Assembly (NCBI GenBank): GCA_016125405.1
Contig: WGLW01000003.1
Span: forward strand, 124,001 to 188,000
Length of the DNA stretch: 64,000 nucleotides
Source of the DNA: Alphaproteobacteria bacterium
Lineage (GTDB): Bacteria > Pseudomonadota > Alphaproteobacteria > Caulobacterales > Hyphomonadaceae
Direction: 5' to 3'
This document shows, piece by piece, positions 43,150-44,631 of this stretch. How positions within the stretch are numbered: the first letter of the stretch is position 1; every line of letters starts with the position of its first letter. The notes below the pieces were generated by a model. The model did no database searches. It was not told the origin of the DNA and saw only the letters and a list, made by a program, of their open reading frames with translations. The translations under genes and the position numbers were made by a program.

Positions 43150-44361
43150 CTAGCCTTTGACGCACACCACCTGTTTCAGCGTGTGCATCACTTCGACGAG
43201 ATCGAACTGCGCCGCCATGACGGCGTCGATGTCCTTGTAGGCTTTCGGCGTCTCGTCGATGACGCCTTCGTCTTTCCGGCATTCGACGCCTTCGGTCGCG
43301 TCGCGGTGGTCCTTCAAGGAGAAGGTCCGTTTCGCTTCCGAACGCGACATGGCGCGGCCGGCCCCGTGCGAGCACGAGCAGAACGCATCGGCGTTGCCTT
43401 TTCCGCGCACGATGAAGGATTTCGCCCCCATCGAACCTGGAATGATGCCGAGGTCGCCCGCGCCTGCGCGTACCGCGCCCTTGCGGGTGACCCAGACGTC
43501 GGCGCCGAAGTGGTGTTCCTTCTCCACATAGTTGTGGTGGCAGTTCACCGCGAGCTTGCCGAGCTTGAACTTCGGCAGGCAGGTTCGCATCGCCTGCATC
43601 GTCCGCTCCATCATCACCTCGCGGTTGGCGCGCGCGTAGTCCTGCGCCCAGCCAACGGCTTCAATGTAGTCGTCGAACAGCGGCTCGCCTTCAACGAAGA
43701 AGGCCAGATCGACGTCCGGCACATGGTAGCCGAGCACGCGCTTTTCGAGAGCCTTGCGGGCAAGCTCGATGAAGTACTGCCCGATCTGGTTGCCGGTTCC
43801 ACGCGATCCCGAGTGCAGCATCACCCACACATGGTCCCGCTCATCGAGGCAGACCTCGATGAAGTGGTTGCCGCCGCCCAGCGTGCCGAGCTGCGAGTTG
43901 ACCTTGTGCGCCGGCACCTTGCAGTGCTTGTCGCGAATGACGTCGAGCCGCGCCTGCAGGTCCGAGTTGCGCCACGTCGAGGCGGACGAATCCGGAATGG
44001 TCCCGAACTCGCCGCCGCGGCCGTTGCCGACCGGAACCTTGCGCTCGATTTCCGAGCGAAGGGTCGACAGGCTGTCCGGCAACTGGTCCGCCGTCAGCGA
44101 CGTCTCGATCGCCATCATGCCGCAACCGATATCCACGCCCACGGCCGCCGGGATGATGGCGCCCCTGGTTGGAATCACACTGCCCACTGTCGCGCCACGC
44201 CCGAAGTGAACATCGGGCATGACGGCGAGGTGGCTGTGAACGAACGGCAGGCCGGCGACATTTTCCAGCTGCTTGCGCGCCGACTCTTCGACGGGCACGC
44301 CCTTCACCCAGGCCTTGATGCGGCCGCCAGAGGCGGTTTCGAACACGTCAAACGTGCTCAT
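43150..44361 (-). CDS. rtcB: RNA-splicing/repair ligase RtcB
   Basis: RtcB joins 2',3'-cyclic phosphate (or 3'-phosphate) and 5'-OH RNA ends using GTP and Mn2+, repairing cleaved tRNA and rRNA. The 403-residue protein has VGVDIGCGMMAIE with the metal-binding Asp and Cys, SQLGTLGGGNHFIEV, NCHHNYVEKEHHF, and the guanylylated His in CSCSHGAGRAMSRSEA. Length fits the shorter bacterial RtcB group. No archease, RtcA or RtcR gene is adjacent. The start follows GAGAAGGAA. The preceding leader contains an attenuator-like structure, described separately. Confidence 0.95.
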   Translation of the reverse strand: MSTFDVFETASGGRIKAWVKGVPVEESARKQLENVAGLPFVHSHLAVMPDVHFGRGATVGSVIPTRGAIIPAAVGVDIGCGMMAIETSLTADQLPDSLSTLRSEIERKVPVGNGRGGEFGTIPDSSASTWRNSDLQARLDVIRDKHCKVPAHKVNSQLGTLGGGNHFIEVCLDERDHVWVMLHSGSRGTGNQIGQYFIELARKALEKRVLGYHVPDVDLAFFVEGEPLFDDYIEAVGWAQDYARANREVMMERTMQAMRTCLPKFKLGKLAVNCHHNYVEKEHHFGADVWVTRKGAVRAGAGDLGIIPGSMGAKSFIVRGKGNADAFCSCSHGAGRAMSRSEAKRTFSLKDHRDATEGVECRKDEGVIDETPKAYKDIDAVMAAQFDLVEVMHTLKQVVCVKG

Positions 44362-44410
44362 GGCTGCGTTTCCTTCTCGCAGACCCTCCGCGCATTCCGG
44401 AAATGAGACA

Positions 44411-44518
44411 AGAAAAATCCCTCCGGCGACATGCGCGGAGGGATGGTTGAACCGGACTTTCCGGCTGACTGGACCCTATCCCTCCACAGTGACGCAACCG
44501 CACAGCTTTGGCTGTGCG
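44411..44518 (-). promoter_or_regulatory. attenuator-like leader of rtcB (pause hairpin, antiterminator, terminator)
   Basis: Read on the minus strand, in order: an 8-bp hairpin CGCACAGC/GCTGTGCG with a CAAA loop (44518-44499); segment A GGAGGGAT (44485-44478); a small CCGG/CCGG hairpin (44464-44452); segment B ATCCCTCCG (44444-44436); segment C CGGAGGGAT (44425-44417) and TTTTTCT. B:C is a 9-bp intrinsic terminator 50 bases before rtcB. A:B is a competing 8-bp antiterminator. The stop codon of the upstream 25-codon frame overlaps segment A, so ribosome position could decide which pair forms. On the plus strand the same repeats are not followed by a T tract, so the minus orientation is favoured. 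Confidence 0.65.
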
Positions 44519-44553
44519 ACGCGCGCTGTCTGATTGTCGTAATCGCGTTTCAT
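44476..44553 (-). CDS. putative leader peptide of rtcB (25 residues)
   Basis: ATG 44553 opens a 25-codon frame starting MKRDYDNQ, with LCGC near its end, and closing with TAG at 44478-44476. A partial ribosome binding site (GGGA, nine bases upstream) is present. The early codons are Lys, Arg, Asp, Tyr, Asp, Asn, Gln; the last codons and stop lie in segment A of the attenuator. It is too short to be a normal protein and is best seen as a regulatory frame. Whether it is translated is unproven. Confidence 0.45.
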   Translation of the reverse strand: MKRDYDNQTARVAQPKLCGCVTVEG

Positions 44554-44602
44554 TTCGCGAAGTCCCGACAGGAGGTTGATCCAGGGGCGGGGAGATGACG
44601 GA

Positions 44603-44631
44603 AAAATGCGGCGAGGTCAAGGCGGCGTCAA
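44603..44631 (-). promoter_or_regulatory. possible promoter of the rtcB leader
   Basis: On the minus strand TTGACG (44631-44626) is separated by 17 bases from CATTTT (44608-44603). The -35 element is good, the -10 weak (3 of 6). A start near 44597 would give a leader of about 235 nt containing the 25-codon frame and attenuator. It lies close to the start of the divergent flavoprotein gene at 44667. Confidence 0.35.

Follow-up and report, generated by a model that had tools for sequence, protein, structure and literature searches.

The stretch upstream of rtcB in the DNA analyzed here (minus strand, ≈44620–44361) very probably acts as a ribosome-mediated transcription attenuator of rtcB, similar in plan to those of the trp and his operons. 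The whole stretch of 64,000 nucleotides, from a genome of the Hyphomonadaceae, is hereafter called the window. Attenuators of the trp/his type comprise a short ORF with a hairpin within it and the mutually exclusive pairings A:B and B:C, with the stop codon located at A. In E. coli, the known control of rtcB is instead exerted by RtcR together with sigma54. What is new here, and in our view well supported by the sequence comparisons presented below, is an attenuator that seems to govern an ordinary rtcB across an alphaproteobacterial order, to replace RtcR and to include a segment placed after the terminator. It would provide a concrete and testable answer to how RtcB is controlled without RtcR in a large bacterial group, with the fourth segment after the terminator being an unusual addition.

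Composition of the rtcB leader

The features identified in the leader are compiled in Table 1. The ORF, the hairpin inside its frame and segments A, B and C had all been included in the original prediction, and each was found at its predicted position. The sequence TTTTTCT listed after C was also present, although the T run proper covers 44417–44413, starting with the base that ends C. That list of parts was real throughout but had overlooked the conserved segment D, positioned past the terminator and before rtcB.

Table 1. Features of the rtcB leader in the window
Feature	Position	Strand	Details	Basis
Promoter-like site	44592–44620	−	−35 TTGACC 44620–44615, 17-nt spacer, −10-like CATCTC 44597–44592	Sequence
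Leader ORF	44476–44553	−	25 codons, MKRDYDNQTARVAQPKLCGCVTVEG	ORF list
Hairpin within leader ORF	44499–44518	−	8 bp, pause-hairpin-like	Inverted repeats 44518–44511/44506–44499
Segment A	44478–44485	−	GGAGGGAT, over leader stop TAG	Sequence and inverted repeat
Small post-stop hairpin	44450–44466	−	7 bp, loop 3	Fold
Segment B	44436–44444	−	ATCCCTCCG	Inverted repeat
Segment C	44417–44425	−	CGGAGGGAT, putative intrinsic terminator stem with B	B:C pairing
Terminator T run	44411–44417	−	TTTTTCT	Sequence
Segment D	44384–44395	−	ATGCGCGGAGGG, 12 bp with 44442–44431 (B and its 3′ flank)	Inverted repeat
Hairpin around rtcB Shine–Dalgarno	44364–44382	−	CTGCG/CGCAG, with AAGGA (44375–44371) in the loop	Sequence
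rtcB	43150–44361	−	403 aa, RNA ligase RtcB	Pfam PF01139

In an inverted-repeat search, A paired with B over 8 bp (44485–44478/44444–44437) and B with C over 9 bp (44444–44436/44425–44417), and the longest perfect inverted repeat of the region was B:D, with 12 perfect base pairs (44442–44431/44395–44384), a pairing that is also part of the minimum-energy fold of the leader. A simple terminator scan left the B:C terminator unreported because the loop limit of that scan is 8 nt and the B:C loop is 10 nt. No sigma-70 site was obtained in the leader from a consensus scan, and the leader's own Shine–Dalgarno is weak, with a strict one found in 39 of the 51 family leaders described below. The identity of the downstream gene was clear from its Pfam match (PF01139, 433 bits, 1.6e-129) and from matches to solved RtcB chains, such as 1uc2 and 7lfq. 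A divergent gene with a glutamate-synthase domain (PF01645; 44664–46262, plus strand) starts, as listed, some 45 nt away from the leader's promoter-like site.

A chance origin of this architecture could be ruled out, both by shuffles and by conservation. The fold of the 271-nt leader was better than those of all 200 shuffles (z −3.6). A detector was defined as an ORF with its stop at a segment A that is identical over 6 nt to part of C, together with a B:C hairpin and a T run. Without demanding a Shine–Dalgarno, it fired on 3 of 2000 dinucleotide shuffles of the window leader; when the window was cut into 850 overlapping pieces of 302 nt, three gave a hit, one being this leader and the other two overlapping at a single further place. 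The same detector found 54 of 205 loci (duplicates counted) versus 4 of 1025 shuffles. A second detector, in which the rule was altered after the first result had been seen by adding a Shine–Dalgarno and accepting an A match of 5 rather than 6 nt, fired on 37 of 56 family loci, 3 of 6 close named loci, 5 of 61 other named loci, 15 of 35 order loci and 0 of 24 class loci (duplicates removed), and on 0 of 910 shuffles. In Rfam the leader had no match at gathering scores and, at E ≤ 10, a match to just one microRNA family, far below threshold, so that a known RNA family as its identity was rejected.

Conservation of pairings and leader frame

Among 105 sampled genomes of the Hyphomonadaceae, the family of the window's genome, 56 contained rtcB (in G052 as a partial gene at a contig end), and the upstream regions were taken from all 56 loci. 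The conservation of A, B and C on which the original prediction hinged was borne out, with a B:C terminator in 51 of the 56 loci (absent from L041 and L081–L084) and a frame ending at A in all of these 51. The T run followed C in 51 of 51 leaders, as the search pattern itself demanded; the window's own locus (L031) was missed at first by that pattern and was entered with its own. A covariance model, R1, built from 36 of the 51 leaders with 15 near-identical or insert-bearing ones left out, singled out precisely these 51 of the 105 genomes, each by a single strong match, at E ≤ 0.01 and with stricter filters; the remaining 54 had no match at this threshold. The same-genus genomes G093 and G100 had neither rtcB nor a model match. 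A weak extra R1 match (E 0.0054) was located away from rtcB, at G049:C21:23480–23645.

The individual parts were likewise widespread in the family. In 50 of 51 leaders, TTGA[CTA] preceded the leader start by 10–90 nt, the promoter-like site mostly reading TTGAC followed by TCATA- or TCAAA-like bases at near-constant spacing. GGAG occurred at the position of A in 48 of 51 leaders, and CCCTCC of B was invariant in all 36 aligned leaders. Some hairpin inside the ORF was seen in 49 of 51 leaders, a count made without shuffle control, and among the 13 same-genus leaders this hairpin was kept with compensatory changes in most, L034 being a clear exception. The CTGCG/CGCAG arms around the Shine–Dalgarno of rtcB were noted by eye in 8 of the 13 same-genus leaders, that of the window included. 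In many family members (L045–L060), also by eye, a variable hairpin spans the stretch from a strong Shine–Dalgarno (AGGAGGAG-like) to the rtcB start, in place of the hairpin loop in which the Shine–Dalgarno of the window lies. About 60–100 nt of extra sequence were present between C and D in L086, with the look of a palindromic repeat, and between D and rtcB in L062 and L076, with B:D kept in all three. In L085 (G078:C1:901200–902407) the leader was kept upstream of an apparently frameshifted gene, with rtcB matches in two overlapping frames, and in L035 (G096:C159:2239–2461) two short rtcB fragments lie 3′ of the intact gene.

In the alignment of the 36 leaders, 99.3% of the cells were paired for B:C, 97.1% for A:B and 92.1% for B:D. 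The covariation that the original prediction expected of both A:B and B:C was obtained for B:C, with compensatory change at two of eight pairs, these being the two outer ones around an invariant six-pair core (8 of 500 shuffles reach that), but not for A:B, which showed no compensatory change in this alignment because A hardly varies. When compared with a shuffled A region for each leader, A:B rarely reached p ≤ 0.05, doing so in 6 of the 51 leaders of the family and in 6 of 42 others, with L099 among the latter being the same record as L080 of the family. Apparently compensatory combinations in A:B could be seen by eye in L213, with CGGAAGG facing CCTTCCG, and in L125, with TTCGGGAG facing CTCCCGAA.

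The B:D pairing had 27 compensatory cells, a count that none of 500 shuffles attained; in terms of pairs with compensatory change (3; 236 of 500 shuffles) and of pair types (9; 400 of 500 shuffles), it was not above shuffles. Slid versions of B:D had far fewer cells paired. A run of at least nine B:D pairs, with G–U allowed, was found in 47 of 51 leaders versus 40 of 1020 shuffles, the run being weaker in L072, L077, L079 and L080, and among more distant leaders D was detected at p ≤ 0.05 in 10 of 48, with about 2 expected. Segment D appears to tie the mRNA past the terminator to the leader, though it is unable to decide termination; a role of D as antiterminator was ruled out, as D is transcribed after the terminator. 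For the putative post-stop hairpin (alignment A1), 72.5% of the cells were paired, with compensatory change at six of seven pairs in 21 cells; slid by one column, the corresponding values were 49.4%, six pairs and 20 cells, and we regard the support for this hairpin as modest.

A frame of 25–30 codons ending over or just after A was present in 51 of 51 family leaders, as picked by a script seeking a frame that ends at A, with 50 starting at ATG and one (L057) at TTG. Segment A starts 10–21 nt before the end of the leader stop. The leader frame was free of in-frame stops in 13 of 13 same-genus leaders and in 33 of 33 distinct 28-codon leaders, and the other two frames carried stops in 13 and 7 of the 13 and in 29 and 15 of the 33. 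With a synonymous share in frame of 0.20 (13 leaders) and 0.26 (33 leaders), no higher than in the other frames, it is thus the frame rather than the peptide that seems to be kept, and amino-acid selection on the peptide was not supported. The leader peptides contained no run of one amino acid, their codons being mixed, which bars the label of an amino acid attenuator and not ribosome-mediated attenuation in general.

With rtcB genes as background and with leaders that are interrelated, so that the figures are not to be taken as probabilities, codons 2–11 of 49 distinct family leaders were enriched for Tyr (4.5×), Gln (3.9×) and Asn (3.7×), as well as for Pro (2.1×), Arg (2.1×) and Lys (1.9×), and were rich in the rare codons CCA, AGG, AAT, CGG and AAA. 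A set of 37 from the 42 more distant leaders showed part of this enrichment (Gln 3.3×, Tyr 3.0×, Pro 2.5× and Asn 1.7×), where Tyr, His, Asn and Asp together made up 0.124, compared with 0.144 in the RtcB of the window. As the enrichment repeats just partly, a wholesale match to one anticodon-nuclease target set was rejected, and the enrichment stays a lead. The codon bias fits a slow or easily stalled translation and names no signal.

Leaders of similar plan with different peptides were found, using named-genome, order and class searches, in Caulobacteraceae, in relatives of Maricaulis and Oceanicaulis and in a few other alphaproteobacteria. In a relaxed scan, performed without shuffle control, a frame was found in 91 of 99 terminator-bearing loci, the family included. 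Model R1 gave 41 matches at E ≤ 1 (best 0.00017) among 78 chosen loci that were either beyond the family set or leader-less, two of these matches being in loci without a visible leader (L111 and L169), and no match at E ≤ 1 in the RtcR-type loci L081–L084 and L231–L235. The GGAGG terminator was absent from the fetched rtcB loci of Lysobacter, Luteimonas and Pseudoxanthomonas.

Proposed switch and alternative explanations

We then considered how the parts could act together, using partition-function folds of the 51 family leaders. With a ribosome at codon 4 and C yet unmade, B paired with the A window at ≥0.66 in 49 of 51 leaders (exceptions L055 and L059). With the leader frame shuffled, a pairing of B with the A window of that strength was found in 9 of 408 cases, and B paired as strongly somewhere within the frame in 200 of 408, versus 49 of 51 for the unshuffled leaders. 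Sequence this rich in G readily offers B a partner, and it is therefore the position at the stop, rather than complementarity alone, that is unusual. A ribosome placed at the stop masks A by the set-up of the fold, and B:C is formed; with no ribosome and C unmade, A:B was predicted at ≥0.5 in 24 of 51 leaders, including that of the window. Once C was made, B:C won at equilibrium in 50 of 51 leaders even with the ribosome at codon 4 (exception L040), and the switch must hence be kinetic, with A:B forming first. In the full read-through mRNA, B:D was predicted at >0.5 in 45 of 51.

From the parts and their conservation, which can be seen directly in the sequences, we infer transcription of the leader, translation of its frame, termination and the roles of A:B and of D. 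RNA polymerase would start near 44585 and transcribe a leader whose short frame is translated, with the hairpin inside this frame probably pausing the polymerase so that the ribosome catches up. A ribosome reaching the leader stop would cover A, allowing B:C to pair and leading to termination near 44411, and a ribosome held in the first codons would leave A free for A:B to form before C is made, with rtcB thereby being transcribed. In the read-through mRNA B would then pair with D and set C free; D perhaps keeps the anti-Shine–Dalgarno-like B off the ribosome site of rtcB, or fixes the read-through state. Any cause of ribosome stalling early in the leader could serve as the signal. As RtcB mends broken tRNA, a signal of this kind would close a neat loop, an attractive but unproven idea.

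The trp/his-type attenuation put forward in the original prediction gains support from the conservation of B:C, the frame ending at A in all 51 leaders and the lack of RtcR described below. A unit having both a promoter-like site and an intrinsic terminator could instead be a separate small RNA or small-ORF gene, with rtcB transcribed from another promoter. We hold this to be improbable, since one weak R1 match alone was found away from rtcB at E ≤ 0.01 in the 105 genomes (with stricter filters, which may lose weak ones), since D past the terminator changes together with B and ties both sides of the terminator to each other, and since the ORF and the position of its stop are kept. The strong alternative fold offered by B:D, and the RNA parts being better kept than the peptide, would also agree with a translation-free attenuator in which a protein, tRNA or metabolite binding to the leader RNA chooses between B:C and another fold. 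We give little credence to such a mechanism, as it would leave aside the near-constant-length frame that ends at A in 51 of 51 leaders and recurs with different peptides in related families; moreover, no meaningful Rfam match was obtained, and D, coming after the terminator, is unable to decide termination. That the leader peptide acts in trans, as reportedly is the case for the Sinorhizobium trp leader, is highly improbable with no synonymous excess in the frame and a peptide that is wholly different between families.

Starting from the favored ribosome-mediated attenuator, a more far-reaching proposal can be made, which we put forward tentatively and consider rather doubtful as a whole. The leader might be a stand-alone RNA-damage sensor replacing RtcR, whereby cleaved tRNAs or ribosomes damaged at the 16S 3′ end would cause rtcB to be read, with B:D as a new clamp that, once the decision has fallen, locks the mRNA in its read-through form. 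With cleaved tRNA or damaged ribosomes, the stop would in that case remain unreached by ribosomes or A would not be held, RtcB would mend the RNA and the switch would then turn itself off. The anti-Shine–Dalgarno of the terminating ribosome could grip A, and it is this anti-Shine–Dalgarno that RtcB is known to restore. At a spacing of 16 nt, as in most leaders from outside the window's genus, GGAGG is located 5 nt before the P-site codon at the stop, a distance typical of Shine–Dalgarno sites; in the genus of the window the usual distance is 10 nt, which misfits such a grip. According to the accessible text of the respective reports, E. coli RtcB re-joins the 16S tail carrying the anti-Shine–Dalgarno after MazF cleavage (PMC8394870), RtcB2 repairs cleaved 16S rRNA (PMC9223846), and the RtcR/sigma54 control of rtcBA in Salmonella answers to broken tRNA and tRNA fragments (PMC7790460).

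Related systems and the distribution of RtcR

The rtcB leader shares its topology with the trp and his attenuators and differs from them in having no amino-acid run, in the extra segment D past the terminator and in serving RNA repair rather than amino acid synthesis. The original statement that no attenuator is known for rtcB held for rtcB itself, with no leader found in the open-access literature searched (most subscription journals lying outside it), but an RtcB-like RNA ligase gene of P. aeruginosa, armZ (PA5471), has a proposed leader-peptide attenuation in the available parts of two reports (PMC12057347, PMC13041342). As described in these parts, the PA5471.1/armZ system likewise has a leader peptide, a segment 3:4 terminator forming upon complete translation, read-through upon stalling and an RtcB-like gene. 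The PA5471.1 leader differs in encoding a 13-residue peptide ≈250 bp upstream of armZ (PMC3516279, accessible text), and ArmZ, which according to the text available to us serves as anti-repressor of an efflux pump and has been modelled with an RtcB structure as template (PMC12057347, PMC3575510), differs from the product of the ordinary rtcB in the window. A D segment, present in the window leader, is unmentioned in the available descriptions of PA5471.1/armZ, the two systems being likened here by description and not by sequence. Together with armZ, the present leader raises the question of whether RtcB-like ligases came under leader-peptide control on more than one occasion. Leader control of rtcB is undescribed in the accessible portions of PMC8394870, PMC10502375 and PMC7824862, and the part available of a Caulobacter ribosome profiling study from 2014 gives leader frames for trpS, ilvIH and ileS, with none mentioned there for rtcB (PMC4117421). 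The open-access literature searched held no account of how RtcB is timed in bacteria without RtcR.

RtcR/sigma54, pointed out in the original prediction as the known regulator, is alike in controlling rtcB and unlike the leader in being a protein activator; both RtcR (PF06956) and RtcA are absent from the genome of the window (G000). In the family, RtcR was found in 4 of 105 genomes, with RtcA in the same four, and their loci (L081–L084) had no leader. Of the genomes sampled from the order and the class, 6 of 150 and 9 of 289, respectively, contained RtcR, which was absent from the attenuator-bearing genomes tested, except for G463. Comparing 118 distinct rtcB loci, we found 81 with a terminator and without RtcR, 16 with RtcR and without a terminator, 21 with neither and 0 with both (Fisher p 5.5e-10, descent not corrected for), a clean genomic exclusion between two control systems of one repair enzyme. 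RtcR was here scored by genome, and in all 16 cases was located on the contig of that rtcB within ≈4 kb; the comparison leaves out 80 loci of the named-genome scan and the RtcR genomes G292 and G355, in which the order search detected no rtcB. Identity to the rtcB of the window is 58–64% for the RtcR-type genes, so that the exclusion is partly inherited; attenuator-bearing rtcB genes of Caulobacteraceae are down to 62% identical. The best reading of this distribution is that the attenuator would be used where RtcR is missing.

The 21 loci with neither feature included six distant RtcB-like matches (31–33% identity), several with a weaker terminator by eye, among them L172 and L230, and four that were found by the detector or the relaxed frame scan, i.e. 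L203, L210 (with an upstream region the same as that of L104), L214 and L225. G463 has two rtcB genes, L205 with an attenuator and L233 with adjoining RtcR and YrlA, which were split accordingly in the comparison. Tandem YrlA (Y RNA-like) genes above the Rfam threshold were also seen upstream of rtcB in L082, L083 and L126, with L082, L083 and L233 being RtcR-type loci; L178 had sub-threshold YrlA matches and L031 none. Finally, tRNA-Pro(tgg) genes were located beside rtcB in L082–L084.
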